Part shown: piece by piece, positions 1,783 to 59,230 of the stretch | Layout of the letters: every line of letters begins with the position of its first letter | Numbering within the stretch: position 1 is the first letter of the stretch | NCBI RefSeq assembly: GCF_000620645.1 | Contig: NZ_JIAV01000014.1 | Span: forward strand, 372,001-436,000 | Direction of reading: 5' to 3' | Source of the DNA: Nocardioides sp. URHA0032 | GTDB taxonomy: Bacteria > Actinomycetota > Actinomycetes > Propionibacteriales > Nocardioidaceae | Length of the DNA: 64,000 nt | The notes under the pieces: model-generated | Told to the model about the DNA's origin: nothing | The model's input: only the letters and a program-made list of their open reading frames with translations | Database searches by the model: none | Made by a program: the position numbers and the translations under genes

Positions 1783-3213
1783 ATGACCCGCACGATCAGC
1801 GCTGCCAGGGTGGCCACCCTGGTCGGCGACTTCGACCGCTCCCCCGCGTACGCCGGGCTCGCCGACGCGCTGGTGCTGCTCATCGGCGACGGACGGATCA
1901 CGCTCGACACCCGGCTGCCCAGCGAGCGCGAGCTCACCGAGGCGCTCGGGGTCTCGCGGACCACCGTGACCCGGGCGTACGCCGAGCTCCGCGACGCCGG
2001 GTACGCCCGCGCCCGGCAGGGTGCCGGCACGTTCACCCGGGTGCCGGGCGGCCGCGCACGGGCCCACGACCGGGCGCTGCTCCCCCGGGCCGGCGACTCC
2101 GACGCGATCGACCTCAACTGCGCCGCACCCTCGGCGCCTCCCGGCATCGCGGCCGCCTACGCCGCGGCGGTCGCCGACCTGCCGGCGTACCTCGGTGGCC
2201 ACGGGTACTTCCCCGCCGGCCTGCCCGAGCTCCAGCGCGCGATCGCGGCGACGTACGACGACCGCGGGCTGCCGACCGACCCCGACCAGATCATGGTGAC
2301 ACCCGGCGCGCTGGCCGCGGCGTCGATCATCGCGCAGGCGTTCACCGGACCCGGCGAGCGGGTGCTCGTGGAGTCGCCGGTCTACCCGAACGCGACCGAC
2401 GCGCTGCGGCACGGTGGCGCCCGCCTCGCGGCGTACCCCGTCGACCCGGACGGCTGGGACCTGGCCGCGGCCGCGGCGGCGCTGCGCCAGACCGCGCCGC
2501 GGATGGCGTACCTGATCCCCGACTTCCAGAACCCCACCGGTCACCTCATGACCGACGCGCAGCGCGAGGAGTACGCCGGGCACCTGCGCCGGACGCACAC
2601 CACCGCGATCGTCGACGAGGCGCACCAGGCGCTGCCTCTCGAGGGCCAGGAGATGCCACGGCCGTTCGCGGCCCACGCGCCCGACACCATCACGATCGGC
2701 AGCGCGAGTAAGGCCTACTGGGGCGGGCTGCGGCTCGGCTGGATCCGGGCGCCGAAGGGCATGGGCGACCGGCTGACCCGGGCGCGGGTGAGCCTCGACC
2801 TCGGCGCTCCCGTGCTCGAGCAGCTGGTGCTGGTCCGGCTGCTCGCCGATCCCGAGATCCTCCCCGTCAACCGCGACCGGCTCCGGGGTCACCGCGACGC
2901 GCTGGTCGGCGCCGTGCGTGAGCAGCTGCCGGACTGGTCGTTCCACGTCCCGACCGGCGGGCTCGCGCTCTGGTGCCGGCTGCCGGGGTCCTTCGGCACG
3001 GCGGTCGCCGCCGAGGCCGAGGCGCGGGGCGCGATCGTCGCCCCCGGCCCGGTCTTCGCGGTCGAGGGCGGCCTGGACAGCTTCCTCCGCATCCCGTGGG
3101 GTCGCCCCGCCGACGAGCTCACCGCCGCGGTCGGCCGGCTGGCGGAGGCGTGGTCCGTCGTCCGTGAGCGCCCGTCCGGCCGCACGCCGACCGGGCGCGT
3201 GATGGTGGCCTGA
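1783..3213 (+). CDS. MocR-family (YczR-type) GntR/aminotransferase regulator
   Basis: A fusion of an N-terminal GntR winged helix (LPSERELTEALGVSRTTVTR, residues about 45-65) to a fold-type I aminotransferase domain. The PLP lysine is in the motif SASKAYWGG, and the aspartate/tyrosine region reads IVDEAH. Members sense a PLP-bound effector and regulate the adjacent gene. The divergent YczE-like membrane gene points to the YczR subgroup. I chose ATG at 1783; an in-frame GTG at 1774 would add three residues. The domain is complete, with no missing key residue noticed. The effector is unknown. Confidence 0.85.
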   Translation: MTRTISAARVATLVGDFDRSPAYAGLADALVLLIGDGRITLDTRLPSERELTEALGVSRTTVTRAYAELRDAGYARARQGAGTFTRVPGGRARAHDRALLPRAGDSDAIDLNCAAPSAPPGIAAAYAAAVADLPAYLGGHGYFPAGLPELQRAIAATYDDRGLPTDPDQIMVTPGALAAASIIAQAFTGPGERVLVESPVYPNATDALRHGGARLAAYPVDPDGWDLAAAAAALRQTAPRMAYLIPDFQNPTGHLMTDAQREEYAGHLRRTHTTAIVDEAHQALPLEGQEMPRPFAAHAPDTITIGSASKAYWGGLRLGWIRAPKGMGDRLTRARVSLDLGAPVLEQLVLVRLLADPEILPVNRDRLRGHRDALVGAVREQLPDWSFHVPTGGLALWCRLPGSFGTAVAAEAEARGAIVAPGPVFAVEGGLDSFLRIPWGRPADELTAAVGRLAEAWSVVRERPSGRTPTGRVMVA

Positions 3214-3270
3214 CGTACGGGGCTGGCTCTCGTGTCCAACCGCCGCGGATGGGCACCTATCAACGCGTGG

Positions 3271-6237
3271 TCAAGCAGGGTGAGCAGTCGTGGTGGCGCC
3301 CACGATCGCGTTCCGTAGCGGTACATGCTGATGAGCGAGCACTCGTGCCCGCCGTAGCAACTTCGCTCCCGTAGTTGCCTGGCCGCGAGTCAAGGCGGAC
3401 TGGCCCGCTCGCCAGAGGCAGTACGCCTCGTCGTGCGGTCGGGGCAACTGGTGCCACTCGTTGGCAGCGCGGTTCCACCGGTCCACTGAGGGTTGACCAG
3501 CCAGGCGGGCGATCTCCGCCGCCCAGGTCGCTGCCAGAGCCTTGTTTGCTCCGAACGCCAGACTGGGCCGGAAAGGGTCTCTTGCGGTCGCATCGCGCAG
3601 GTCACGCAGGGTGTGGAGCAGGCGGTCCCGGTCGTGGTCGAGATCAGCCGAGATCTCCATCTTGTCGGCGGCCGCGCGTGCCGCAAGGCATAGCAGCGGA
3701 CCGATGAACGCCGAAGCGTCCGTGCGCACCGCCCTGCGGATGACGATGAGGAGGCGGTCAAGTGCCATCTGCGGTCGGCCGGACCACAGGGAGGCTGCGG
3801 CGAACGCATCGGTCGACTCGATCAGGTTGGCGAGGCCGTCGAACTGGGACGGGTCAACCATCGCGTACCTCTCGATGGCCTCCGTGTCGAAACGCCCACG
3901 GAGAAGGTCGAGGAGGGCGCGTTCACTGTGTAGGCCGAAGATGCGTGGAACGGGGATCCCTTCGGTCATCGGGTCGATCAGCTCGGCAGCCCGGTCCACG
4001 TGACCGGCCAGGCGCAGGGCCTGTGCCACGTTGTACCGAAGGACCGCGACGATGTGGGCGTCGAAGCCCCAGGCCGTTGCTACATCCAGTGCTGGACGTG
4101 CGGCCGCGATCACCGAGTCGGGGTCAGCGGCAGCCCAGTTCAAGATCACGGTGTGCTCAATGGCGATGTGGACGTCGCCAGCCGGATCCGGCTGCGGGAC
4201 CTGGATCCGAGCCGCCTCCCGGATCCGCGAGAGCGCGAGATCAAGGTCGCCGTCCTTGGCCGAATACGAGGCCAGGAGTGCCAGCAACCACCGATGCAGT
4301 TCAGGTGCCGCGATCAGGGCGCACATCTCAGCTCCCAACAGTGCGGTCGCGGCGCCCTCCTCCTCGCGACCAACAGACCAAAGCAGCCACTCCCGACGGA
4401 TCAGAGCACGCACGTGGTCCGCTGAGGGTCCGAGCCCTTCGTAGATGTGGAGAGCCTTGTCCATCAGAAGCAGGGCGCTCTCCTGCTCGCCGAGGTTCCC
4501 TTGATACTCGGCCGCGCGCTGATAGATCGCTGCCGCGTCCGGACTCTCGGAGTCGGCCTGGTCTTCCATCGCCTCCTGGGCTACCGCTGCGGCGAGCAGA
4601 ACGTCGACGGGGCCCAGTGCATCCATCAGCGCGAGATAGACGTCGCACTTACGGACGGGCGGCGAGCCGGCCAGCTCGTCGTCTCCGGGCCACAGCAGAA
4701 GGGCGCGCTGCCAGTGCGCCGCCGCTGCTCTCATCGCGAGTCGCTGGCCGGCAGCCTGGGCTGCGCGTATACGCCAGACGATCTCCTGGGCAGGGTCCTC
4801 GCCGAGCTGCCATTGCTCGGCGACCTCACCAGGGGATGGATCAGCAGTCCGGGCGAGTGCGGTCGCAAGCCGGCGATGTTCCTCGACGAGCTCGTGGGCC
4901 ACCAGGTGCCGCCGCACGGCTTCAGCCAGCAGCGGGTGCCGCAACTCGACCTCGTGGCCCTTGGCCGAACGGAGCAACCTCCGAGCCTCCAACTCGTGGA
5001 GGCCGGCGACGAACGCGGTCGGCGGCAGCTGGGTCAGCTCCGACAACAACGAGTCGGTCAGGGAACGGTCAGCCGCGCCAAGGGCACTCACGATGGACCA
5101 TGCCGGATCGCCGAGCCCTTGGATGCGCCGGTCGAGCAGGTCCGCGAGAAGTTCCGGGAGGGGCTGGCCGTCGTCGTGCGCCGCGAGCTGTTCGGTGAAC
5201 AGGGGTTGCCCACGAGTACGGCGGTAGATCCTTTCCAACAGCTCAGCTGCCGGGCGATCGCCAGCCAGCAGTTCAAGCTGGACGGCCGTCTCCTCGCGGC
5301 TCAGCGGGCCCAGGACGAACGTCTCGACGCTCGGCATCCGTCGCACCCGAATACCCCAGTCGGCCGTGGCCACGGACGTGGCCGGATCCTCGAGACGCCA
5401 CGTCCCCACCATTGGCACATCCACGCCGCGAGACACCAGATGCTCGAGCAGGTCCAGGGTCGAGGAGTCGGCCCAATGCAGGTCCTCCACCAGGACCGCG
5501 AGCGGCCGGACCGCGGCGAGCGAAGTCCAGGCCGCCGAGACCGCCGCGAACATCCGGTGCCGCCACCAGTCATCCGCCGACATCCCCGGCGTGTCGTCGG
5601 CCTCGCCGAGCTCGGGCAGCAGCCGACACAGCACCGCCCGCACGTACGGCGCGCACCCGGCGAGGCCCTCCTCGAGCCACCGGCCCTCGTCCACCTGGTA
5701 CGCCGAGCGAAGGACGTCGGCGATCGGAAGCAGCGGCACCTGGGTCGACAACGGACGGCAGGTACCCCTGGCTACGAACATGTTGCGCCCAGAGCCAGCC
5801 GCGAACCCCGCCGCCGTGTCCACCAGCCGGGTCTTCCCCATCCCCGCCTCGCCGGTGACCAGCAACAGACCGCTGCCGGACTCGAGGTGCCGCCGGACCG
5901 TAGCCAGCTCGTCACGGCGCCCGGCGATCGGCGACCCCGGAGTCGAAGCGGGACCACTCGCGGCTAGCCACAACCTGCGGAACTCATCGACGTCACCGCC
6001 CATCGCCTCCACGACCAGCTCCAGCACCCCCCACGACGGCAGCTTGGGTGAAGAGAACACCGTGGCGACCGTTGTATGTGAGCAACCCGCCTCCCGGGCG
6101 AGCGCCCGCAGGCTCGGCCAGCCCGCCTCGTGGTGCAGCGCATGGAGCGAATCGACCAGGTCTCGTTGGGAACCCGGCTGGACCTCGGGACGTGCGAGCC
6201 GTCCTCCAGTACCTCCCACAGCACCTCCCGCGCGCAC
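3271..6237 (-). CDS. HTH-AAA ATPase transcriptional regulator (MalT/SARP-like architecture)
   Basis: A 988-residue regulator. Residues about 25-90 form a helix-turn-helix segment (SLRALAREAGCSHTTVATV) of the type found at the N-terminus of actinobacterial HTH-AAA proteins. An AAA/STAND ATPase follows, with Walker A GEAGMGKT at about 129-136 and Walker B LAVLVEDLHWAD at about 246-257. The rest is a long alpha-helical, TPR-like region. There is no LuxR HTH at the C-terminus. Start GTG 6237 is taken, but GTG 6219 has a better ribosome binding site (GGGAGG 4 nt upstream). No operon partner is evident and the target is unknown. Proteins of this design usually act as signal-integrating activators. 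Confidence 0.8.
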   Translation of the reverse strand: MRAGGAVGGTGGRLARPEVQPGSQRDLVDSLHALHHEAGWPSLRALAREAGCSHTTVATVFSSPKLPSWGVLELVVEAMGGDVDEFRRLWLAASGPASTPGSPIAGRRDELATVRRHLESGSGLLLVTGEAGMGKTRLVDTAAGFAAGSGRNMFVARGTCRPLSTQVPLLPIADVLRSAYQVDEGRWLEEGLAGCAPYVRAVLCRLLPELGEADDTPGMSADDWWRHRMFAAVSAAWTSLAAVRPLAVLVEDLHWADSSTLDLLEHLVSRGVDVPMVGTWRLEDPATSVATADWGIRVRRMPSVETFVLGPLSREETAVQLELLAGDRPAAELLERIYRRTRGQPLFTEQLAAHDDGQPLPELLADLLDRRIQGLGDPAWSIVSALGAADRSLTDSLLSELTQLPPTAFVAGLHELEARRLLRSAKGHEVELRHPLLAEAVRRHLVAHELVEEHRRLATALARTADPSPGEVAEQWQLGEDPAQEIVWRIRAAQAAGQRLAMRAAAAHWQRALLLWPGDDELAGSPPVRKCDVYLALMDALGPVDVLLAAAVAQEAMEDQADSESPDAAAIYQRAAEYQGNLGEQESALLLMDKALHIYEGLGPSADHVRALIRREWLLWSVGREEEGAATALLGAEMCALIAAPELHRWLLALLASYSAKDGDLDLALSRIREAARIQVPQPDPAGDVHIAIEHTVILNWAAADPDSVIAAARPALDVATAWGFDAHIVAVLRYNVAQALRLAGHVDRAAELIDPMTEGIPVPRIFGLHSERALLDLLRGRFDTEAIERYAMVDPSQFDGLANLIESTDAFAAASLWSGRPQMALDRLLIVIRRAVRTDASAFIGPLLCLAARAAADKMEISADLDHDRDRLLHTLRDLRDATARDPFRPSLAFGANKALAATWAAEIARLAGQPSVDRWNRAANEWHQLPRPHDEAYCLWRAGQSALTRGQATTGAKLLRRARVLAHQHVPLRNAIVGATTTAHPA

Positions 6238-8422: not shown

Positions 8423-8469
8423 ACACAAGATGTGGTCCCACACTTCCCCGACCGTCCTACATATGGTGG
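8423..8469. promoter_or_regulatory. Paired NrdR-like boxes and -10 of the nrdAB promoter
   Basis: Two motifs resembling the NrdR box lie with their cores (CACAAGATGTGG and CCTACATATGG) exactly 31 bp apart, at C8426 and C8457. A spacing of about 31 bp, three helical turns, is the hallmark of tandem NrdR sites. The second overlaps a -10-like TATGGT at 8462-8467, placing the likely transcription start near 8474, just before the riboswitch. Matches to the general consensus are partial (about 11 of 16 in box 1), so this is a good candidate rather than a certainty. Confidence 0.6.
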
Positions 8470-8477
8470 CGGACGCA

Positions 8478-8657
8478 GCTGGTTCGGCGCCCCAGCCAGG
8501 GACGCCGAGGCAAGAGGGAACCCGGTGAGAGACCGGGACTGCCCCGCAGCGGTGAGTGGGAACGAGCGCCGTCATCAGCACTGGAGAGATCCGGGAAGCG
8601 ACGGTCAGTAGGGGTCGAGATCGTTCGACGTGCCCACGAGTCCGAAGACCTGCCAGC
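8478..8657 (+). ncRNA. Cobalamin (AdoCbl, class I) riboswitch upstream of nrdAB
   Basis: The sequence holds the ordered conserved blocks of a B12 riboswitch. First is GAGGGAA, then CCGGTGAGAGACCGGG, CTGCCCCGCAGCGGTGAG, and CAGCACTGG with CCGGGAAGCG. The B12-box region GTCCGAAGACCTGCCAGC lies at about 8640-8657. The presence of the CACTG and GGGAAG blocks fits class I. It precedes nrdAB, as in Streptomyces coelicolor nrdABS, where B12 represses the class Ia reductase because a B12-dependent class II enzyme can take over. High cobalamin is therefore expected to switch nrdAB off. Confidence 0.9.
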
Positions 8658-8658
8658 G

Positions 8659-8681
8659 CACCCCGCCCGTCGGGCGGGGTG
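8659..8681 (+). terminator. GC-rich hairpin after the riboswitch, probable expression platform
   Basis: CACCCCGCCCG (8659-8669) and CGGGCGGGGTG (8671-8681) are exact reverse complements, separated by one base. This makes an extremely stable hairpin directly after the B12 box. It lacks a U-tract, like many actinobacterial terminators. It could be the conditional terminator of the riboswitch or a structural spacer; the nrdA start is a further 134 nt downstream. Confidence 0.55.
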
Positions 8682-8815
8682 GTCCGAGGCCTCGTGGGAC
8701 GGCCGACGGCACGTACGACGTACGCAGGTCCCCGGCTCGCCCGGACCCGCACTCGTACCTCCGTCCTCTCCTCACGACCCCGGACCGTCGGGACCGATCT
8801 CGCGAGGAGAGAGAA

Positions 8816-11188
8816 GTGACGGTCACAGCAGCATCCAGCCGAGCAGTGGGCAGGACCTCGATGCAGGTCCGCAAGCGCAACGGCGACAGCGAGCCCGTCG
8901 ACGTCAACAAGATCGTGCGGGCGGTGGACCGCGTCAGCGGCGACCTGGCGGACGTCGACCCGATGCGGGTCGCGACCCGGACCATCAGCGGGCTCTACGA
9001 CGGCGCCACGACCGCCGAGCTCGACCGCCTGTCGATCCAGACGGCCGCGGAGATGATCGGCGAGGAACCGCAGTACTCGCGGCTCGCGGCCCGGCTGCTG
9101 TCGGGCTACATCGACAAGGAGGTCCGCAACCAGGGCGTCGCGTCGTTCAGCCAGTCGGTCTCGCTCGGCCACGCCGAGGGCCTGATCGGCGACGAGACCG
9201 CGGCGTTCGTGAAGGACAACGCCCGCAAGCTCGACTTCGCGATCGACGACCGGGCCGATCGCCGCTTCGAGTACTTCGGCCTCCGGACCGTGTACGACCG
9301 CTACCTGCTGCGGCATCCCTCGACCCGGCTGGTGGTCGAGACCCCGCAGTACTTCCTCCTCCGGGTGGCGTGCGGCCTGGCGCAGAGCCCGGGCGAGGCG
9401 ATCCGGTTCTACCGGCTGATGTCCTCGCTCGCCTACCTGCCGAGCAGCCCGACGCTCTTCAACTCCGGCACGCGGCACACCCAGATGTCCTCGTGCTACC
9501 TGGTGGACAGCCCCCGCGACGACCTCGACTCGATCTACGCGCGCTACGGACAGGTCGCGAAGCTGTCCAAGTTCGCCGGCGGCATCGGGATCGCGTTCTC
9601 CCGGGTCCGGTCGCGCGGCGCGCTGATCCGCGGCACCAACGGGCAGTCCAACGGGATCGTGCCGTTCCTGCGCACCCTCGACTCGTCGGTCGCGGCGGTC
9701 AACCAGGGCGGCCGCCGCAAGGGGGCCGCGTGCGTGTACCTCGAGCCGTGGCACCCCGATGTCGAGGAGTTCCTCGAGCTGCGGGACAACACCGGCGAGG
9801 ACGCCCGGCGCGCCCACAACCTCAACCTGGCCAACTGGATCCCCGACGAGTTCATGCGGCGGGTCGAAGCCGACGAGGCCTGGTCCCTCATCGACCCCGA
9901 CCAGGCCCCGGAGCTCCCGGACCTGTGGGGCGAGGCGTTCGACGCGGCGTACCGCCGGGCCGAGGAGGACGGTCGTCTCGTCCGCCAGGTGCGGGCCCGT
10001 GACCTCTACGCGAAGATGATGCGCACCCTCGCGCAGACCGGCAACGGCTGGATCACCTTCAAGGACGCGGCGAACCGCACCTGCAACCAGACCCGGGACA
10101 CGCCGGGCGGACCGGTCGTGCACCTGTCGAACCTGTGCACCGAGATCATCGAGGTCTCCTCCGACGGGGAGACCGCCGTCTGCAACCTCGGCTCGATCAA
10201 CCTGGCCCAGCACCTGCTCGCCGACGGGGTCGACTGGGACAAGCTCCGCGAGACCGTGCGCACGGCGGTGCCGCTGCTGGACCGGGTGATCGACATCAAC
10301 TACTACCCGAGCGAGGAAGCGGCGGCGTCCAACCCGCGCTGGCGCCCGGTCGGGCTCGGGCTGATGGGCCTGCAGGACGTGTTCTTCGCGCTCAGGATGC
10401 CCTTCGACTCCCCCGAGGCCCGTGAGCTCTCGACCCGGATCCAGGAGGAGATCTACCTGACCGCGCTCGAGGTGTCGTGCGACCTCGCGAGGCGACACGG
10501 GCCGCACCCGTCGTACGACGAGACCCGAGCGGCCGCCGGCGTCCTGCAGCTCGACCACTGGGAGGCCACGCCGCACCAGACCGAGCGCTGGGAGGCGGTG
10601 CGAGCCGACATCGCCGCGCACGGACTGCGGAACTCGCTGCTCGTCGCGGTCGCACCGACGGCGACCATCGCCTCGATCGCGGGCTGCTACGAGTGCATCG
10701 AGCCCCAGGTCTCCAACCTGTTCAAGCGCGAGACGCTGTCCGGGGAGTTCCTCCAGGTCAACGCCGCCCTCACCCGTGAGCTGAAGGCGCGCGGGCTGTG
10801 GACACCCGAGGTGCGCGAGGCGATCAAGCGCGCCGAGGGCTCGGTGCAGGGCCTCACCGCGCTGCCGGAGGACGTGCGCGCGCTCTTCCGCACGGCGTGG
10901 GAGCTCCCGCAACGCGCGCTGGTCGACATGGCGGCCGACCGCTCGCCGTACGTCGACCAGAGCCAGTCGCTCAACCTCTTCATCGCCGGCCCGTCGATCG
11001 GGAAGCTCTCGTCGATGTACCTGCACGCCTGGAAGTCCGGGCTGAAGACGACGTACTACCTGCGCTCGCGGCCCGCGACGCGGATCCAGCAGACGACCGT
11101 GTCGGTGGCTGTCCCTGACGCGGCGTCCGACACCGCAGCCGTCGTCTGCTCCCTGGAGAACCCCGAGACCTGCGAGGCGTGCGAATGA
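8816..11188 (+). CDS. nrdA: Ribonucleoside-diphosphate reductase class Ia, alpha subunit
   Basis: The 790-residue large subunit reduces NDPs to dNDPs. The N-terminus carries an ATP-cone allosteric domain (MQVRKRNGDSEPV). The active-site pattern is complete: the disulfide-forming Cys in MSSCYLVD, the catalytic NLCTEI (Asn, Cys, Glu), the second redox Cys in AVCNLGSINL, and the radical-transfer tyrosines in TTYYLRSR. The C-terminal tail TCEACE provides the shuttle cysteines. Start GTG 8816 is chosen because GCGAGGAGAGAGAA precedes it and the ATP-cone begins soon after. Open sequence further upstream belongs to the riboswitch leader. It overlaps nrdB by 4 bp and is controlled by a B12 riboswitch and probably NrdR. 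Confidence 0.95.
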   Translation: MTVTAASSRAVGRTSMQVRKRNGDSEPVDVNKIVRAVDRVSGDLADVDPMRVATRTISGLYDGATTAELDRLSIQTAAEMIGEEPQYSRLAARLLSGYIDKEVRNQGVASFSQSVSLGHAEGLIGDETAAFVKDNARKLDFAIDDRADRRFEYFGLRTVYDRYLLRHPSTRLVVETPQYFLLRVACGLAQSPGEAIRFYRLMSSLAYLPSSPTLFNSGTRHTQMSSCYLVDSPRDDLDSIYARYGQVAKLSKFAGGIGIAFSRVRSRGALIRGTNGQSNGIVPFLRTLDSSVAAVNQGGRRKGAACVYLEPWHPDVEEFLELRDNTGEDARRAHNLNLANWIPDEFMRRVEADEAWSLIDPDQAPELPDLWGEAFDAAYRRAEEDGRLVRQVRARDLYAKMMRTLAQTGNGWITFKDAANRTCNQTRDTPGGPVVHLSNLCTEIIEVSSDGETAVCNLGSINLAQHLLADGVDWDKLRETVRTAVPLLDRVIDINYYPSEEAAASNPRWRPVGLGLMGLQDVFFALRMPFDSPEARELSTRIQEEIYLTALEVSCDLARRHGPHPSYDETRAAAGVLQLDHWEATPHQTERWEAVRADIAAHGLRNSLLVAVAPTATIASIAGCYECIEPQVSNLFKRETLSGEFLQVNAALTRELKARGLWTPEVREAIKRAEGSVQGLTALPEDVRALFRTAWELPQRALVDMAADRSPYVDQSQSLNLFIAGPSIGKLSSMYLHAWKSGLKTTYYLRSRPATRIQQTTVSVAVPDAASDTAAVVCSLENPETCEACE

Positions 11189-12189
11189 ACCAGATGCTGT
11201 TGGACCCCGGCATGAACCTGACCCTGCGGCCGATGCGCTACCCGCACTTCTACGACCGCTACCGGGACGCGATCAAGAACACCTGGACCGTCGAGGAGGT
11301 CGACCTGCACTCCGACCTCAAGGACCTCCAGCGGCTCAGCGACGCCGAGCGGCACCTGGTCTCGCGGCTGGTGGCGTTCTTCGCCACCGGCGACACGATC
11401 GTCGCCAACAACCTGGTGCTGAACCTCTACCAGCACATCAACTCGCCGGAGGGCCGGCTGTACCTCTCCCGCCAGCTGTTCGAGGAGGCGGTGCACGTGC
11501 AGTTCTACCTGACCCTGCTCGACACCTACGTCCCCGACGAGACCGAGCGACACGAGGCGTTCGCCGCGGTCGACAACATCCCCTCGATCAAGGCGAAGGC
11601 GGACTTCTGCTTCCGGTGGATCGACTCGGTCTTCGACCTCGACCGGCTCGAGACCCGGGAGCACCGGCGCAGGTTCCTGCTCAACCTGATCTGCTTCGCC
11701 GCCGTCATCGAGGGGCTCTTCTTCTACGGGGCGTTCGCCTACGTCTACTTCCTGCGCTCGCGGGGCTTCCTCAACGGCCTCGCCTCGGGGACGAACTGGG
11801 TGTTCCGCGACGAGTCCATGCACATGGCGTTCGCCTTCGACGTCGTCGACACCGTCCGTGCCGAGGAGCCCGAGCTCTTCGACGACGAGCTGGCTGCCCA
11901 GGTCCGGCAGATGCTGGTGGACGGAGTGGACGCCGAGGCGCAGTTCGCCGACGACCTCCTCGGCGGGGGTGTCGCCGGCCTGTCGACCGCCGACATGCGC
12001 TCCTACCTGGAGTACGTCGCCGACCGGCGCATGGAGCGCCTCGACCTGGAGCCGATCTACGGGTCCCGGAACCCGCTCGCGTTCATGGAGCTCCAGGACG
12101 TGCAGGAGCTCTCGAACTTCTTCGAGCGCAAGGTGTCCGCGTACCAGGTCGGCGTCACCGGGGTCGTCGGGTTCGACGAGGACTTCTGA
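11185..12189 (+). CDS. nrdB: Ribonucleoside-diphosphate reductase class Ia, beta subunit
   Basis: The 334-residue radical-generating subunit. The dimetal ligands are in place: Asp in FATGDTIV, Glu and His in EEAVHVQFY, Glu in VIEGLFF, and Glu and His in RDESMHMAF. The Tyr four residues after the first His (HVQFY) is the predicted tyrosyl radical. The C-terminal tail VVGFDEDF is the peptide that docks on the alpha subunit. ATG 11185 overlaps the nrdA stop (ATGA), so translation is coupled. The enzyme needs oxygen and a metal cluster, which makes its control by cobalamin availability sensible. Confidence 0.95.
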   Translation: MNQMLLDPGMNLTLRPMRYPHFYDRYRDAIKNTWTVEEVDLHSDLKDLQRLSDAERHLVSRLVAFFATGDTIVANNLVLNLYQHINSPEGRLYLSRQLFEEAVHVQFYLTLLDTYVPDETERHEAFAAVDNIPSIKAKADFCFRWIDSVFDLDRLETREHRRRFLLNLICFAAVIEGLFFYGAFAYVYFLRSRGFLNGLASGTNWVFRDESMHMAFAFDVVDTVRAEEPELFDDELAAQVRQMLVDGVDAEAQFADDLLGGGVAGLSTADMRSYLEYVADRRMERLDLEPIYGSRNPLAFMELQDVQELSNFFERKVSAYQVGVTGVVGFDEDF

Positions 12190-52488: not shown

Positions 52489-53652
52489 ATGGGACGGTCC
52501 GCCGCGCTCGTCACCTCCGCCGTCCTCACGGCGGCACTGCTCTCCTCGTGCAGCGACGACGAGCCGCCGGACGCGGCCCCCGGCGACACCGTGACCGCCA
52601 CCCCCCAGTCGCCGACCGGCACGACCAGCCCGTCCAGGCCGGCGGGCGACAACACGCCGTCGGTGGACGACTCGCCTCCGACAGTCGTCGACACGGTCGC
52701 GATCGGGCTGGCCGTGCCGTGGGGCATCGGCTTCCTGCCCGACGGCGACGCCGTCGTCACCGAGCGCGACACCCGGCGGGTGCTGGTGATCGACGGGTCG
52801 ACGTACGACGTCCACCAGGTCGGCCTGATCAGCGCGGCCGTGCCGCTGGGCGACCAGGGCGGCGAGGCCGGGCTGCTCGGGGTCGCCGTGTCTCCGGACT
52901 TCGAGCAGGACCACCTCCTGTACTTCTACCTGAGCACGGCCGTGGACAACCGGATCGTGAAGGCCACCCTCGAGCACGGCCGGCTCGGCCCGACCACGGT
53001 GATCCTGGACGGCATCCCGAACGGCTTCATCCACGATGGCGGCCGGCTCGCGTTCGGCCCCGACGGCTACCTCTACGCCTCCACCGGCGAGACCGGAGAC
53101 GCCGAGCTCGCCCAGGACAAGGGCACGCTCGCCGGCAAGATCCTGCGGATGACCACCGACGGGAAGCCGGCCCCCGGCAACCCGTTCCCCGGCTCGCAGA
53201 TCTGGTCCTACGGGCACCGGAACGTGCAGGGCCTGGCGTTCGACGACGACGACCGCCTCTGGGCCTCGGAGTTCGGCCAGGACACCTACGACGAGCTGAA
53301 CCTGATCGAGAAGGGCCACGACTACGGCTGGCCGATGGTCGAGGGCCGCGGCTCGGGCAAGGGACTCACCAATCCGCAGGTCGTCTGGCCGACCGACGTC
53401 GCGTCGCCCTCCGGGCTGGCCTACCTCGACGGGCACCTGTGGCTCGCGTCGCTGCGCGGCGAGCGGCTCTGGCGCGTCGACCTGCACGGCGACCACGCCG
53501 TCCACCCGGTCGACTACTTCGTCGGGAAGTACGGCCGGATGCGCACCGTGGTGGTGACGCCGGACGGCAGGCTGTGGGTCACGACCAGCAACCGCGACGG
53601 CCGCGGCGACCCGCAACCGGGTGACGACCGGATCCTGCTCATCGACCCGTGA
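52489..53652 (+). CDS. PQQ-dependent sugar dehydrogenase-like lipoprotein
   Basis: A 387-residue exported beta-propeller of the soluble glucose dehydrogenase (GSDH) family. The lipobox is ALLSSC (Cys21), then a Pro/Thr/Ser-rich linker to about residue 62. The propeller contains LAVPWGIGFLPDGDAVVTER, GGEAGLLGVAVSPDF, IPNGFIHDGGRLAFGPDGYL (without the usual His-His-Gly) and SYGHRNVQGLAF. The GHRNVQG motif is diagnostic. It may oxidise sugars on the cell surface if PQQ is available. TAGAGT (52475-52480) precedes the ATG by eight nt. Confidence 0.85.
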   Translation: MGRSAALVTSAVLTAALLSSCSDDEPPDAAPGDTVTATPQSPTGTTSPSRPAGDNTPSVDDSPPTVVDTVAIGLAVPWGIGFLPDGDAVVTERDTRRVLVIDGSTYDVHQVGLISAAVPLGDQGGEAGLLGVAVSPDFEQDHLLYFYLSTAVDNRIVKATLEHGRLGPTTVILDGIPNGFIHDGGRLAFGPDGYLYASTGETGDAELAQDKGTLAGKILRMTTDGKPAPGNPFPGSQIWSYGHRNVQGLAFDDDDRLWASEFGQDTYDELNLIEKGHDYGWPMVEGRGSGKGLTNPQVVWPTDVASPSGLAYLDGHLWLASLRGERLWRVDLHGDHAVHPVDYFVGKYGRMRTVVVTPDGRLWVTTSNRDGRGDPQPGDDRILLIDP

Positions 53653-54442
53653 GCACCCGGCCGGTCACGGTCGCGCGCCGCGACGCCCGCCGCAGCGTCG
53701 TGAGGATCGCCGGACCCAGCACCACGATCGCCACGGCGTTGGTGATCGCGCGGGCGGTGTCCCAGCTGCCCGTCGAGGTGAGCAGGGTGTAGACGAGGAA
53801 CGTGTGCAGGTTCTCCAGCACCGGCGCGCCGGCGACGTAGGCCAGCGACCCCTCGTGCCCCTCGACGGCGATCCCTGCGATGAACGGCCATCCCGAGAGG
53901 TTCATGAACAAGCCGTAGAGGTAGGCGGACACCACGCCGTACGCCGCCAGCATCGCGATCTCGCCGCGACCGGCGACCCGGCGTGGGAGCAGGCCGGCGC
54001 CCATGCCGACCCAGGCGGCGCAGAGCATCTGGTACGGCAGCCACGGGCCGACGCCCGCGGTCATCAGCGCGGACGCGAACAGCGACGTGCAGCCCAGCAC
54101 GAACCCGAAGCCGGGGCCGAACACGCGTCCGGCGAGGATCAGCAGGAAGAACGTCAGCTCCACGCCGGCGGTGCCCGGCGAGACGCCGCGCAGGATCGCG
54201 TTGGCCGCGCTGAGCACGCCGAGGATCGCGAGCACCCGCGGGTCGAGCCCACCCTCGTTCAGCTCGGCGAGCACGACGGCGAGCACCACCGGCAGCAGGC
54301 CGAGGAACAGGAACGGCGGGTCGACCCGGGTCGCGTCGTGGACGCGGAGCAGCAGCGGCCAGCAGAGCATGGCCAACCCGGCCGCCGAGGCGACCGCGAG
54401 CACGACCAGGGATCGCGGCGAGATCCGGACCGCCGGTGTCAT
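53639..54442 (-). CDS. ECF transporter S component (substrate-binding membrane subunit)
   Basis: A 267-residue integral membrane protein with about six to eight helices, typical of ECF S components (segments VLAILGVLSAANAILRGV, VELTFFLLILAGRVFG and GFVLGCTSLFASALMTAGVGPW). It confers substrate specificity on the adjacent EcfT and EcfAA' subunits. The operon is preceded by a cobalamin riboswitch, so cobalamin or a precursor is the likely substrate. The ATGA overlap at 54439-54442 couples it to the ATPase gene. The 3' end overlaps the convergent sugar dehydrogenase gene by 14 bp. Confidence 0.85.
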   Translation of the reverse strand: MTPAVRISPRSLVVLAVASAAGLAMLCWPLLLRVHDATRVDPPFLFLGLLPVVLAVVLAELNEGGLDPRVLAILGVLSAANAILRGVSPGTAGVELTFFLLILAGRVFGPGFGFVLGCTSLFASALMTAGVGPWLPYQMLCAAWVGMGAGLLPRRVAGRGEIAMLAAYGVVSAYLYGLFMNLSGWPFIAGIAVEGHEGSLAYVAGAPVLENLHTFLVYTLLTSTGSWDTARAITNAVAIVVLGPAILTTLRRASRRATVTGRVLTGR

Positions 54443-56013
54443 GACGCGTCCAGCTGGGCTGCGACCTCGTCCACCCGCAGCCACGGCGGGCCGAGGACCT
54501 TCATGACCTGGGGCGCGAACGACGGCGACTCGGCGACCACGCGGCGCACCGGGCCGGACGAGACCACGTCGCCGTCGGCGAGGACGACGACGTCGTCGGC
54601 CACCTGCGCGACGAACTCCACGTCGTGGGTGGCCACCAGCACGTCGTGGCCGTCGGCGGCGAGTCCGCGGAGCACGCCCGCGAGGACGTGCTTCGCGGCG
54701 TAGTCGAGCCCGCGGGTCGGCTCGTCGAGCAGCAGCACCCGAGGCCGGGTGGTGAGCACCAGGGCGAGCACGAGCGCCAGCCGCTGTCCCTCCGAGAGGT
54801 CACGCGGGTGGTGGTCGTCGGGGATGCCCGGCACCAGCCGGTCCAGCAGCGCCCGGCACGCGCCGGAGCCACCGTCGGCGGCGGCGCACTCCTCCGCGAC
54901 GGTCTCGAGGTACAGCAGGTCGGCGGCGTTCTGCGGCACCAGCCCGACCAGCGCGCGGCGGCCCGCGGCGTCCAGGTCCTTCGGGTCCACGCCGCCGGCG
55001 GACACCCGGCCCGCCGAGCGACGGCCGCTGCCCTGCAGCGCCCAGATCAGCGAGGACTTCCCGGCGCCGTTGCGGCCCATCAGCGCGGTCACCCGGCCGG
55101 CGCCGAGGGTCAGGTCGACCTGCCGCAGGGCGACCGTCCGCCCGTGCACGACCGACAGGCCGCTGACCGACACGCCCACCTCGACCGCCTCGTCGACCGT
55201 GACCGGCGGCTGCAACCGCTCCACGAGCCCGCGCGCCCGGCGGCGGGCGTCGCGCACGCTGAGCGGCAACGGGTCCCAGCCGGCCGCGCGCCCCAGCTCC
55301 ACGATCGGGGGGACGACGGGCGAGTCGACCAGCAGCTCCCCCGGCTCGCCCACGTGCACGCGGCCGTCGCCGGTGAGCAGGCACATCCGGTCGGCGAACG
55401 GCACGACCCGCTCGAGCCGGTGCTCGGCGAGCAGCACGGAGACGCCGAGGTCGTGCACGAGCCGGGTCAGGGTCGCCAGCACCTCCTCGGCAGCGGTGGG
55501 GTCGAGCGCGGAGGTGGGCTCGTCGAGCACCAGCAGCCGCGGGTGCATCGTGAGCACGGACCCGATCGCCACCCGCTGCTGCTGCCCGCCCGAGAGCGTG
55601 CGCAGGTCCCGAGCGCGCAGCTCGGCGATGCCGAGCAGGTCGAGCGTCTCCTCGACCCGGCGGCGCATGGTCTCGGAGGGCAGCCCGAGCTGCTCCATGC
55701 CGTACGCCAGCTCCTCCTCGACGGTGTCGGTGACGAAGCCGGCGGCCGGGTTCTGCCCGACGTACCCGATCGCGTGGGCGCGCTCGCGCGGCGGAGCGTG
55801 CACGATGCTGACGCCGTCGAGCAGCACGTCGCCGTCCAGGGTGCCGCCGCTGAACCGCGGCACCAGGCCGGTCACCACCCCCAGCAGCGTCGACTTGCCG
55901 ACGCCCGTCGGACCGGACACCAGGACCAGCTCGCCCTCGTCCACGGCCAGGTCGACGCCCTCGAGGACCGGCAGCTCGTCGTAGCGGAACGTGATGCCGC
56001 GCAGCTCGATCAT
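54439..56013 (-). CDS. ECF transporter duplicated ATPase (EcfA-A' fusion)
   Basis: A 524-residue protein with two ABC domains. Domain 1 has Walker A GPTGVGKST, signature LSGGQQQR and Walker B VLDEPTSALDP. Domain 2 has GRNGAGKSS, the variant signature LSEGQRLAL and LLLDEPTRGLD. It energises the membrane T/S complex. The S gene follows with an ATGA overlap, and the T gene precedes with another. This A-A' fusion plan is known in actinobacterial ECF systems. Confidence 0.92.
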   Translation of the reverse strand: MIELRGITFRYDELPVLEGVDLAVDEGELVLVSGPTGVGKSTLLGVVTGLVPRFSGGTLDGDVLLDGVSIVHAPPRERAHAIGYVGQNPAAGFVTDTVEEELAYGMEQLGLPSETMRRRVEETLDLLGIAELRARDLRTLSGGQQQRVAIGSVLTMHPRLLVLDEPTSALDPTAAEEVLATLTRLVHDLGVSVLLAEHRLERVVPFADRMCLLTGDGRVHVGEPGELLVDSPVVPPIVELGRAAGWDPLPLSVRDARRRARGLVERLQPPVTVDEAVEVGVSVSGLSVVHGRTVALRQVDLTLGAGRVTALMGRNGAGKSSLIWALQGSGRRSAGRVSAGGVDPKDLDAAGRRALVGLVPQNAADLLYLETVAEECAAADGGSGACRALLDRLVPGIPDDHHPRDLSEGQRLALVLALVLTTRPRVLLLDEPTRGLDYAAKHVLAGVLRGLAADGHDVLVATHDVEFVAQVADDVVVLADGDVVSSGPVRRVVAESPSFAPQVMKVLGPPWLRVDEVAAQLDAS

Positions 56014-57110
56014 GCGACCGCCGCCTCCAGCGTCGCGGCGGCCAGCCGCGGCGGCGGCGAGCAGAGCGGGCCGAGGAGGCCGACGACCGCGAGCAGCAGC
56101 GCGGCGCCGCTGACGGGCGGGAAAGCGTCCAGTGCCGGGTAGGCGACGGCCGACTGGTGCGCGTTGAGCCACCAGCCCAGCGCGCCGACCAGCACGCCGC
56201 TGGCGACCACGGCGAGCTCGGGCCAGCGCCACGAGTCCGGCCGGTACCGGCTCCGCTCGACCCGGCGTCCCGCGCTGAGCAGGCCGGCGGCGGCTGCTGC
56301 CACGCCCAGGCCGAGCATCGGCAGCGCGAGGAACCGCGGGGCGGTCGTGTCCAGCACGGCGTAGGTGCCGACGCAGATGCCACCGAGGCCGGTCAGCATC
56401 AGCGCTCCGGTCGTACGGCGCTGCGCACGGGTCGCCCCGCTCGCGCGACCGTAGCCCCGGGTGTCCATGCCTGCGGCCAGGGCGAGCGAGCGCTCCAGCG
56501 CGTCCTCGAGCACCGGCACGAGGAACCGGCGCAGCCGCCGGACCCGACCGGTCTCGCCCGCCCGCAGCGCCTGCGCGGCACGCACCCGGCGGGCGCTGTC
56601 GGCGAACTGCGGCAGCACCGTCACCGCGACGACGAGGGCGGTGCCGATCTCGTAGAGCGCGGGCGGGACCGAGCGGAGCAGCCGCTTGGGGTTGGCCACC
56701 GAGTTCGCGGCCCCGATGCAGATGACGATCGTGGCGAGCCGGAGCCCGTCGTACAGGGCGAACACCAGCGCCTCCGCGTACAGCGGACCGAGGAGGGTGA
56801 TCCCTGCGACCCAGTCCGGCAGCGGGACCGCCGGCAGCCGGAGCAGCACCCGCCCGCCGGTCCAGCCGCCGAACACGATCCAGAACGCCAGCCGGACGCC
56901 GACGATCACGACGCCGAGCCAGACGTAGAGGCGGAACGACCGGCCCCACGGCTGGTCGGACCGGCGCAGCGACACCACGGTGGCCGCGACCCCCACCAGC
57001 ATCAGCAGGATCAGCGGGTTCGTGGTGAACGACGCAGCGACCGCGAGCCCGAGCGCCCAGGCCCACCAGGCCACGGGATGCAGGTCGCGGGGCAGCCGGT
57101 CCACGCTCAC
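56010..57110 (-). CDS. ECF transporter transmembrane component (EcfT)
   Basis: A 366-residue membrane protein, longer than most EcfT. The central cytosolic coupling helices carry the family motif ALERSLALAAGMDTRGYG (about residues 206-223), which contacts both ATPase domains. Helices flank it at both ends. GTG 57110 overlaps the SCO2322-like stop (GTGA), and its own stop overlaps the ATPase start. It probably serves the one dedicated S component of this operon. Confidence 0.9.
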   Translation of the reverse strand: MSVDRLPRDLHPVAWWAWALGLAVAASFTTNPLILLMLVGVAATVVSLRRSDQPWGRSFRLYVWLGVVIVGVRLAFWIVFGGWTGGRVLLRLPAVPLPDWVAGITLLGPLYAEALVFALYDGLRLATIVICIGAANSVANPKRLLRSVPPALYEIGTALVVAVTVLPQFADSARRVRAAQALRAGETGRVRRLRRFLVPVLEDALERSLALAAGMDTRGYGRASGATRAQRRTTGALMLTGLGGICVGTYAVLDTTAPRFLALPMLGLGVAAAAAGLLSAGRRVERSRYRPDSWRWPELAVVASGVLVGALGWWLNAHQSAVAYPALDAFPPVSGAALLLAVVGLLGPLCSPPPRLAAATLEAAVA

Positions 57111-58000
57111 GCGGCTCCCCGGCGGCGTACGACGGCGACCGCGCCCGCGGCACCGAACAGCAGCACGATCACGACGGGCGCCACCCAGCCCGGCAGCCCG
57201 CCGCCGCCGGGATCCGCCGGGTCGGCGGAGGCGGGGAGGAGCGAGGGTGAGTCGCTCGCGGTGGGCGAGTCACCGGCGGTCGTGGCGGACGACCCCGAGG
57301 GCTGCGGCTCCCGGGAGTGCGGACCGTCGCCGGCCTTCGTCCGCGAGGACGTCGCCGACGGCGACCCGGACGGGCCCGCGGTGGCGGCCGACGAGGTGGC
57401 CGACGAGGTGGCCGGCGAGGTGGCCGACGGCGGTGCGCTCGAGGGGCCGGTGTGGCCCGGTGCGGCGGTGTGCGTCGGCGCGCGCGTGGGCGTGGGGCTG
57501 GCGCTGGGGTGCGGCGCCGGGCTCGCACCCGGCGCCGCGCTGTCGCTGCTGCCCTGCCAGGAGAACGCGACGTACCCGCCGTCGGGGACGTGCTGGCCGC
57601 CGGCGCCACTGGTCGCGTAGGTCCAGCGTCCCGACCTGCCGTCGGACCAGTACAGGGCCCAGTACGCGTCCGCGGGCGGCGTGTTCACGCACGGGTTGTC
57701 GGCGGGCTTGCCCGACACCCGGCACACGAAGCTCGGCTGGCGCTGCACGTAGGTGAGCGGGAAGCCGGCGGCCGGGAACAGCTGGGCCGCGGTCTCCCCG
57801 CCACCGTCGGCGACGCACGCCGTCTGCACGCCGCCGTCGAGCTGGTGGAAGTCGACGACGACGGTCACGCCGTCGGCGGTCGGGCAGCCGGCGGCTGATG
57901 CAGGGGCGCCCGGGAACGCCACCGCGACGGCCGCGACGAGGACTGCCGCGACCGGTGCCACCGGGTGGAGGAGCCGGTGGACCACCCTGGACCTCAGCAC
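57107..58000 (-). CDS. SCO2322-type secreted, membrane-anchored protein with transcobalamin beta-domain-like fold
   Basis: A 297-residue protein. A signal peptide (LLHPVAPVAAVLVAAVAVAF, cleavage after SASA-like ASA) leads to a domain at about residues 33-150. Next come a long Ser/Thr/Pro/Ala linker and a C-terminal helix (WVAPVVIVLLFGAAGAVAVV) with an RRR stop. The domain shows the order of a DUF4430/transcobalamin C-terminal fold: TVVVDFHQL, AAQLFPAAGF, an aromatic YWALYWSDGRSGRWTYA and DGGYVAFSW. GTG 58000 is inside the preceding gene's last codons. It lies in a B12-riboswitch operon with an ECF transporter. Confidence 0.75.
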   Translation of the reverse strand: MLRSRVVHRLLHPVAPVAAVLVAAVAVAFPGAPASAAGCPTADGVTVVVDFHQLDGGVQTACVADGGGETAAQLFPAAGFPLTYVQRQPSFVCRVSGKPADNPCVNTPPADAYWALYWSDGRSGRWTYATSGAGGQHVPDGGYVAFSWQGSSDSAAPGASPAPHPSASPTPTRAPTHTAAPGHTGPSSAPPSATSPATSSATSSAATAGPSGSPSATSSRTKAGDGPHSREPQPSGSSATTAGDSPTASDSPSLLPASADPADPGGGGLPGWVAPVVIVLLFGAAGAVAVVRRRGAA

Positions 58001-59028
58001 CCCGGGAGCTGCAGGGACGGTGCTGCCTGGCTGGTCGCACGGCGCCACTGGTCGAGGGTGTCGTCCGAGATCCCCGCCCGGTAGGCCTTGCGGTCGTAGG
58101 CGATGGCGCCGTTCTTCTTCTGCAGCCCGGCGACCCAGTCGGTGGCGTTGTCGGCGGCGCGGCACTTCCCGCCGCGGGCGAGCGCCCGGGCGGCCAGGCC
58201 GGTGCTGTTCGTGTTCGCCGCCGAGGTCGTGGGACCGCCGCCGAAGCTGCCGTTGTCCTTCTGGTGGCGCACCAGCCAGCGCAGCGCGTCCGCGATCGCG
58301 CTCTTCACCACACGCGAGGGGTGATGCACCGACTGCAGCTGGGCCACCGCGACCGCGGTCGCGTCGGTGTCCGGCGCGCGGTCGGAACGGGCCGCGCCGT
58401 CGCAGGTCTGGTCGGCCGCGGCCTTGTCGGCGAAGTACAGCCGGAAGAAGCCGGCGTCGCACTGCTGATCGAGGAGGAAGGTCGTGGCCGTGGCCGCCGC
58501 GGAGGAACCGGCGCGGCTCAGGGCCGCGACCGCGTACGCCTGGCCCAGGGTGTTCGCGTAGTCGGTGCCGTCGGTCTGGTCCTGCAGCCGGCCCGTGGTT
58601 CCGTCGGCGGTGCTGATCCGCCCCTCGAGCCGGTCGACGAGGTCCACCCCGCCGAACGCGGTCGGGTCGGCTCCGGCGACCTGCGCGAAGACGACCGCCT
58701 TGGCGACCGACCCGGCGTAGATGTCGCTGCTGCCGAAGTCGACGCCGGTGGTCCAGCTGTCGACGTGGTGGGCCAAGGCCCGCTTGACCTTCTTCACCGC
58801 CGGCCGGTGGCCGCCGATCTCGGTGAGCGCCATCGCGGTGTCCGCGGTGAGGCCGTAGTCGTCGAAGTCGTAGACGTCGTTGTGGATGAGGCCCCCGGTG
58901 AGCTGGCCCTCGAGCCAGTCGCCGGAGCGGCCGCCAGCGGCCGACGCGGCGGGCGTGGTGCCGACGGCGGTGCCGAGGGCGAGCGCGCCGACGACGAGTG
59001 CCGGGACGAGACGGGTCCTGCGATTCAT
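57994..59028 (-). CDS. Secreted alpha/alpha-toroid protein (prenyltransferase-repeat/intrinsic-factor-like)
   Basis: A 344-residue exported protein with signal peptide MNRRTRLVPALVVGALALG. The mature part consists of about six helical repeats of the terpenoid cyclase/prenyltransferase toroid type, with G/D/T-rich turns such as YDFDDYGLTADTAMAL, YANTLGQAYAVAALSRAG, DTDATAVAVAQLQ and NTNSTGLAARALARGG. The same fold forms the N-terminal alpha domain of intrinsic factor and transcobalamin. It starts at ATG 59028 with GGAAGG upstream. First in an ECF operon behind a cobalamin riboswitch, it is a likely extracellular cobalamin-binding or -presenting protein. Confidence 0.78.
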   Translation of the reverse strand: MNRRTRLVPALVVGALALGTAVGTTPAASAAGGRSGDWLEGQLTGGLIHNDVYDFDDYGLTADTAMALTEIGGHRPAVKKVKRALAHHVDSWTTGVDFGSSDIYAGSVAKAVVFAQVAGADPTAFGGVDLVDRLEGRISTADGTTGRLQDQTDGTDYANTLGQAYAVAALSRAGSSAAATATTFLLDQQCDAGFFRLYFADKAAADQTCDGAARSDRAPDTDATAVAVAQLQSVHHPSRVVKSAIADALRWLVRHQKDNGSFGGGPTTSAANTNSTGLAARALARGGKCRAADNATDWVAGLQKKNGAIAYDRKAYRAGISDDTLDQWRRATSQAAPSLQLPGC

Positions 59029-59037
59029 GGTGTTCCT

Positions 59038-59056
59038 TCCCGCTGCAGTAGCGGGA
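59038..59056 (-). promoter_or_regulatory. Ribosome-site-sequestering hairpin of riboswitch II
   Basis: On the minus strand TCCCGCT (59056-59050) pairs with AGCGGGA (59044-59038), whose end runs into the GGAAGG ribosome binding site of the toroid-protein gene. An upstream AGCGGG (59087-59082) could pair with the same CCCGCT and free the site. This is a plausible translational on/off switch for the cobalamin aptamer. Confidence 0.55.
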
Positions 59057-59111
59057 GGCACCGGACCCTGCCCGGAAGCGACCCGCTGCGTTCCGCGACA
59101 GCGTGGGTGAA

Positions 59112-59230
59112 GACGCGTCGCAACAGGCGCTCCGGCTCGCCCCCGGCAACGGCCGGGTGCCTACGGTTGCGGGTCAGCGCCGGACTTCGACCGGCTTCCC
59201 CCGCTGCGGGCGTGATGGATTCAGTTGTGC
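59112..59230 (-). ncRNA. Cobalamin riboswitch (short class II-like) before the ECF operon
   Basis: Read on the minus strand, the order is GGGGGAAGCCGGTCGAAGTC, CCGGCGCTGACCCGCAACC, a variable stem CACCCGGCCGTTGCCGGG, then the B12 box GCGAGCCGGAGCGCCTGTTG. The CACTG/GGGAAG block of class I is missing, which fits the shorter class II-type aptamers common in actinobacteria. A -10 TATGCT at 59242-59237 puts the transcript start near 59230. High cobalamin should repress the import operon that follows. Confidence 0.88.

Follow-up and report, generated by a model that had tools for sequence, protein, structure and literature searches.

In a stretch of 64,000 nucleotides from Nocardioides sp. URHA0032 (assembly GCF_000620645.1, contig NZ_JIAV01000014.1, positions 372,001 to 436,000; hereafter the window), we analysed a minus-strand operon (53639-59224) in which a cobalamin riboswitch is followed by genes for an alpha/alpha-toroid protein, a beta-domain protein and the EcfT, EcfA-A' and S components of an energy-coupling factor (ECF) transporter. 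The toroid and beta-domain proteins probably constitute a split pair resembling animal transcobalamin, which would bind cobalamin or a related corrinoid, close around it and hand it over to the ECF importer for transport. The original prediction, made from the sequence alone, had proposed such a pair.

Operon organisation

The operon contains no gaps. The toroid gene (57994-59028, ATG at 59028) and the beta-domain gene (57107-58000) were taken from the reading of open reading frames, the signal peptide of the toroid being recognised by eye, and they overlap by 7 bp. Overlaps of 4 bp then connect the beta-domain gene to EcfT (56010-57110; PF02361, 38.6 bits, cut-off 25), EcfT to the fused EcfA-A' ATPase (54439-56013; two ABC_tran stretches, E 4.4e-49), and the ATPase to the S component (53639-54442; PF12822, 34.1 bits, cut-off 30.7). 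The leader of the operon carries a short riboswitch (59107-59224), which scored 106.1 bits with R1, a covariance model of our own. Thus, the coordinates bear out the gene order with overlaps of 4-7 bp that had been claimed, and Pfam supports the identities given to the three transporter components. The same order recurs across Actinomycetota, hence the arrangement is not due to chance, and the operon is confirmed as an observation.

Cobalamin riboswitch

The general model RF00174 matched the leader at 59129-59198 with 21.8 bits, under its gathering threshold of 31.5 (E 0.0014 in a search of 471 bases); the alignment skips 64 positions in the middle of the model, while the conserved core is aligned. 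R1 was built from alignment A9, comprising 30 of 34 diverse leaders (four were dropped; 61 were extracted in all), the window leader among them. The 30 leaders share an invariant core, 96% of the pair cells hold standard pairs, and ten pairs have changed on both sides. None of 500 shuffles reached the covariation score of this alignment, and shifting the pairing partners reduced the score at least 3.7-fold.

For comparison, 80 loci were picked by similarity to the S component and are therefore mostly from Nocardioides; ten were set aside, leaving 70 assessable named loci. In 69 of them R1 matched upstream on the operon strand, where upstream means, here and in the gene tallies below, on the same strand and within 9 kb of the S gene, and where loci that contributed leaders to R1 match it by construction. 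The riboswitch lies no more than 1.2 kb from the first gene in 60 of these loci and is preceded by a further toroid gene in the other nine; the 70th locus, L146, is cut at its edge and retains a partial match. The search took in 73 of the 80 named loci and the window, seven short loci having been left out and counted as set aside. The tally was entered by hand, and matches below 26 bits were dropped, except for three at 24.9-26.0. RF00174 itself was run on nine loci. Its gathering threshold was passed at the operon R1 site of L177, L192 and L213; in L189 and L194 it was passed at R1 sites that precede a toroid/beta gene pair, oriented divergently from the transporter in L194. In L166, L184, L203 and L206 the score stayed under the threshold. 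In the wider phylum, six of 40 loci were set aside, and 25 of the remaining 34 likewise have a riboswitch upstream. The covariation of the leaders and the upstream matches in the 69 relatives secure the predicted B12 riboswitch, even though the score of the window leader is under the gathering threshold.

In locus L168, two cobalamin riboswitch matches (3109-3219 and 3440-3561, +) stand in tandem upstream of a single operon, both on the same strand. At L231:10145-10263 (+) an extra match of 95.7 bits is situated directly 3' of the S gene, preceding whatever follows.

The beta-domain protein

Read by eye, the beta-domain protein has a signal peptide, a linker rich in Pro, Ser and Thr, and a C-terminal membrane anchor. 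By simple thresholds rather than a trained predictor, 66 of the 86 beta proteins that are not fused to a toroid show a C-terminal membrane segment, at a mean distance of about 130 residues past the domain. The domain (57470-57889) was modelled by AlphaFold2 from 49 alignment rows with a predicted local distance difference test score (pLDDT) of 85.0 and a predicted template modelling score of 0.75. The first 13 PDB rows returned by Foldseek for this model were transcobalamins and haptocorrin. VIA-align gave 15 rows at Z 9.5-10.6, comprising transcobalamin, haptocorrin, intrinsic factor and the bacterial structure 3u7z, with 94-100 residues aligned at a root-mean-square deviation (rmsd) of 2.9-3.4, whereas the next unrelated fold scored Z 6.2. 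We take 3u7z to be a bacterial DUF4430 protein.

The window beta domain is accordingly predicted to adopt the transcobalamin-type beta fold. Of the DUF4430-like domain expected originally, the fold stands as a prediction, while by sequence the protein does not belong to PF14478: that family matched neither the window protein nor anything else in its genome, and one of 23 relatives matched it at E 0.043. Pfam gave no match to the beta protein at all, and the NCBIfam and PDB sequence searches returned nothing useful. Alignment A1 comprises 23 of the listed beta matches.

The toroid protein

The window toroid matched cyclase and toroid families of Pfam, with all scores below threshold (SQHop_cyclase_C 22.9, cut-off 26.1). 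It also gave a partial match to the SCO2321 family membrane protein of NCBIfam (NF053823; 78 bits, E 6.4e-22), far below the cut-off of 300. A relative of the toroid has therefore already been catalogued, under a model name that gives no function.

When the toroid profile was aligned by hhalign with the toroids of transcobalamin, intrinsic factor and haptocorrin, the score was modest (E 2.5e-4, probability 43%), and none of 200 column shuffles scored as high; with three transcobalamins only, E was 0.023 and none of 40 shuffles did. In the former alignment, the invariant bacterial Asp202 falls on Asp176, part of the V-D-T motif in human transcobalamin, and N-x-N-S-T-G-L-A of the bacterial toroids falls on N-V-Y-S-T-P-L-A of the human protein. 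Asp176 and Asn224 of transcobalamin are presumably cobalamin contacts. Numbered as in the L177 stretch that was folded (see below), the residues D202, T204, N251, N253, T255 and Q329 are invariant in 46 of 46 toroid rows. By simple thresholds, an N-terminal hydrophobic segment is found in 76 of 79 toroids, indicating export, and a lipobox-like site in nine of 79.

Alignment A3 holds 31 of 50 toroid rows. A4 and A8 hold 44 of 70 diverse toroids from the named loci, together with the window toroid; A8 also includes the ten nearest of 48 beta rows, its rows being trimmed and those inspected being correctly placed. It replaced, after local MAFFT trials, two mixed toroid/beta alignments (A5 and A6) that were discarded because of misplaced rows.

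Natural toroid-beta fusions

The two domains had been described as adjacent genes, and in the window they are indeed separate; in ten of the 160 loci examined, a single reading frame holds both, in either order. Seven fusions (L033, L044, L062, L177, L209, L213 and L216) have the toroid first, as in the animal proteins, and three have the reverse order: L146:34-3450 (+), L166:9843-11402 (-) and L175:3326-5359 (+). The L062 and L177 proteins are nearly identical, so the ten fusions do not represent ten independent events. An eleventh candidate, at L162:4368-6869, was set aside as an apparently broken frame, since it also enters EcfT and has only a short match to the toroid. The L166 fusion has a riboswitch of its own at 11539-11653 (-).

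The L177 fusion was folded as a stand-in for the two-protein pair, with a pLDDT of 84.3. Its nine best PDB matches by Foldseek were transcobalamins, with E-values from 7.9e-9 and both domains aligned. The toroid fold is thus predicted in a natural fusion related to the window toroid, and is assigned to the window chain by homology.

Conservation and gene content in relatives

In a family sample of 149 genomes, the toroid (called at E up to 1e-10) was found in 89 and the S component in 128. The S component was present in 87 of the 89 toroid genomes as opposed to 41 of the 60 others (p 4e-7, uncorrected for kinship); conversely, the toroid occurred in 87 of 128 genomes with an S component and in two of 21 without one. 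Fifteen transporter loci were re-read, namely those of 13 of the 41 genomes with the S component only and those of G053 and G084, in which the toroid is elsewhere in the genome. Two proved to have a weaker toroid beside beta and ECF genes, one contig stops before the capture genes, and 12 have beta and ECF genes with no toroid detected nearby; among these 12, the beta matches are weak and fragmented in six, and one contig ends there. The riboswitch was found in 13 of the 14 re-read loci searched, the exception being the short contig L243, and the beta-ECF operons of G053 and G084 likewise have it. In the four genomes examined in which the toroid is apart from the transporter (L043, L047, L053 and L066), each of the four toroid genes is preceded by a riboswitch of its own, some 55-65 bases ahead of the aligned start of the toroid. 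Across the phylum sample, the S component was detected in 82 of 396 genomes.

EcfT and EcfA lie upstream of the S gene in all 70 assessable named loci, the beta gene just upstream of EcfT in 65, and a toroid upstream in 63. The exceptions for the beta gene are L136, L168 and L176 (after the S gene), L114 (before a second toroid) and L180 (none detected). The 34 wider-phylum loci contain EcfT in 33, EcfA in 34, the beta domain in 27 and the toroid in 18. The S component is 65-81% identical to that of the window in 21 relatives, and alignment A2 holds 22 of 35 S rows.

Two toroid genes per operon occur in L033, L035, L036, L039, L055, L061, L118, L130, L131 and others. In L183, L186, L188, L200, L203 and L204, two toroid matches in one frame are accompanied by ECF genes and by fragmented beta matches, which look like tandem beta domains. 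A beta gene is situated directly 3' of the S gene in L050, L054, L058 and L065, besides one before EcfT, as well as in L136, L168 and L176. In addition, L182:4034-7075, L190:3605-6661, L201:3114-6362 and L202:3339-6929 (all -) have a single open frame of 1013-1196 residues covering EcfT, EcfA-A' and S, and so would appear to encode a complete ECF transporter as one polypeptide.

B12 synthesis and use

The genome of the window gave no match to CobN and none to CbiC, and CobS and a cobalamin adenosyltransferase are present. Six matches to B12-binding domains are over the cut-off, two of them in open reading frames of methylmalonyl-CoA mutase; of the six frames taken at these matches only those two gave a family, the other four being the longest frame at the site and perhaps not the coding one. 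Judging by this gene content, the bacterium appears unable to build the corrin ring of B12 yet able to use the vitamin.

In the 129 high-quality genomes of the family, the S component is present in 47 of 47 lacking CobN as opposed to 69 of 82 with CobN (p 0.002). The underlying table (47, 0, 69, 13) was compiled from genome tallies, with one genome taken to be G145. Nine of the 13 genomes without the S component belong to one genus, so shared ancestry may explain part of this association.

Proposed mechanism and alternatives

From these results, a mechanism may be suggested. By analogy with riboswitch biology, scarcity of cobalamin would permit expression of the operon. On the outer side of the membrane, the secreted toroid and the membrane-tethered beta protein would then probably enclose cobalamin or a related corrinoid, which might itself stabilise the pair, much as the alpha and beta domains of human transcobalamin, when expressed separately, are reported to come together once cobalamin is added (PMC5599065). 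The S component of the dedicated transporter would receive the ligand from the loaded complex, and EcfT, EcfA-A' and S would import it with ATP. The nearly constant position of the beta gene before EcfT, together with the looser presence of the toroid, suggests that the beta protein is the docking half of the pair. Only tentatively do we extend this to a two-protein B12 receptor assembled by its ligand, in which a toroid that is soluble, or in some species lipid-anchored, and a tethered beta protein would close solely around cobalamin beside the ECF importer. An unrelated substrate of the transporter is disfavoured, only indirectly, by the riboswitch control and by the co-occurrence with CobN absence.

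Several observations weigh against a transcobalamin-like capture pair. The sequence of the beta domain shows no relation to that of transcobalamin that these methods could detect (95 of 200 shuffles scored as high in hhalign, and no transcobalamin matched in the PDB searches), and the nearest solved relatives of the toroid by sequence are squalene-hopene cyclases. The best structural matches of the toroid of the L177 fusion are cyclases and sugar epimerases (Z up to 25.1), and the VIA list for the fusion contains these and other toroid enzymes with no transcobalamin among the 50 entries listed, an absence that does not exclude likeness to transcobalamin. Over both domains, the L177 model deviates from transcobalamin by an rmsd of about 21 Å; the domain arrangement is not reproduced, so the model is uninformative about a shared cleft. 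At the level of gene content, seven of the 70 named loci have the transporter and the riboswitch with no toroid detected upstream, L180 has neither capture gene at its locus, and the four loci with an apparent single-chain transporter keep the beta gene with no riboswitch detected. For the S component, a sequence search of the PDB at E up to 10 gave no match to a chain of solved structure; S components are known to diverge strongly in sequence. Finally, the association with CobN disappears when all 149 genomes, incomplete ones included, are considered (p 0.16), and all p-values are uncorrected for shared ancestry.

A different ligand for the same machinery has to be considered foremost, namely an incomplete corrinoid (cobinamide or some other precursor) in place of cobalamin, which we regard as somewhat unlikely. 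The lack of CobN and CbiC matches, combined with CobS and an adenosyltransferase, fits precursor salvage, and known B12 importers also take up cobinamide (PMC6593275). Nevertheless, the riboswitch and the transcobalamin-type fold fit cobalamin equally, and nothing separates the two ligands.

Alternatively, the uptake system might consist of the beta protein together with the ECF transporter, with the toroid being a secreted enzyme, either terpene-cyclase-like or acting on the cell wall or on corrinoids, that shares only the regulon. The cyclases and epimerases among the nearest matches of the toroid, as well as the seven loci without it, would agree with such a role. However, the DXDD motif, which is catalytic in squalene-hopene and terpene cyclases, is missing from all 46 toroids (its last Asp occurs in none and its first in 28), and the profile match to the transcobalamin-family toroids exceeds that of shuffled profiles. 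Together with the hydrophobic N-terminal segments, which point to export, and the ten fusions with the beta domain in both orders, this makes an enzyme improbable.

It is still less probable that the proteins bind corrinoids for storage, for scavenging against competitors or for signalling instead of import. The toroid is perhaps freely secreted, as lipobox-like sites are rare in the family, and some loci have two toroid genes, but the tight overlap and regular association with a dedicated ECF module argue otherwise. Least of all do we expect the likeness in fold to be devoid of the corresponding function, with the beta domain binding another ligand and the riboswitch belonging to some other process that B12 represses, for instance the uptake of cobalt. 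The structure 3u7z (Z 10.1) is described only as a putative metal-binding protein, yet the S component matches PF12822, the CbiM family (PF01891, as we take it) is not among its listed Pfam matches, and the co-occurrence with CobN absence in high-quality genomes speaks against this reading.

Comparison with known systems

The preferred reading, a split pair capturing cobalamin or a related corrinoid for the ECF importer, has counterparts in several known systems. As in animal transcobalamin, intrinsic factor and haptocorrin, an alpha/alpha toroid goes together with a beta domain, which is predicted to have the same fold as theirs; unlike in these carriers, the bacterial halves are usually encoded by two genes, and the beta half is tethered to the membrane beside the importer. 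PF01122 (Cobalamin_bind) had no match in the genome of the window at E up to 10, nor in the Pfam scan. As regards the transporter, the closest comparison is ECF-CbrT, presumably of Lactobacillus delbrueckii. The two have in common the S, T and A components and B12 as the likely substrate; in the portion of the ECF-CbrT text available, the words 'lipoprotein' and 'riboswitch' are absent, and 'soluble' appears once, in an unrelated sense (PMC5997447). Unlike ECF-CbrT, the module of the window is dedicated, has a fused EcfA-A' and includes two extracellular proteins. A further parallel is offered by B12-binding surface lipoproteins of Bacteroides, which we take to be BtuG and BtuH/DUF4465; these have different folds and work at a Gram-negative outer membrane, with a TonB-dependent receptor instead of an ECF importer. 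Like the pair proposed here, they are reported to capture B12 at the cell surface (PMC6143338, PMC13398666).

ECF-mediated uptake of B12 (PMC5997447) and animal transcobalamin are thus already known. A search of mainly open-access literature brought up no description of split transcobalamin-like proteins within a bacterial ECF operon. It is poorly known how actinobacteria unable to make B12 take it up; a review on mycobacteria, in the part available, assigns B12 import solely to one promiscuous ATP-binding cassette (ABC) transporter and names no ECF constituent (PMC12713380). The operon described here offers a candidate importer, tractable by genetics and biochemistry, in a common bacterial group. 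It also bears on how the B12 carriers of animals arose, and so joins both questions. Our findings suggest that bacteria may capture B12 in much the same way as proteins of human blood and stomach do. If the proteins are homologous, the animal carriers would descend from, or share an origin with, a bacterial surface pair whose halves were fused more than once. In any case, natural split and fused architectures of the transcobalamin type provide material for studying how such a binder is loaded, closes and releases its ligand.

A second cobalamin riboswitch in the genome

Two cobalamin riboswitches were found in the genome of the window, with 150 first-look candidates scored of 304 and of 11890. 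Riboswitches of this kind before ribonucleotide reductase genes of the nrdAB type are known from Streptomyces. The second site here is of the same sort: a gene pair for an nrdAB-like class I ribonucleotide reductase (8630-12189, +) has a classical cobalamin riboswitch (8463-8671, +; 85.8 bits) in front of it.

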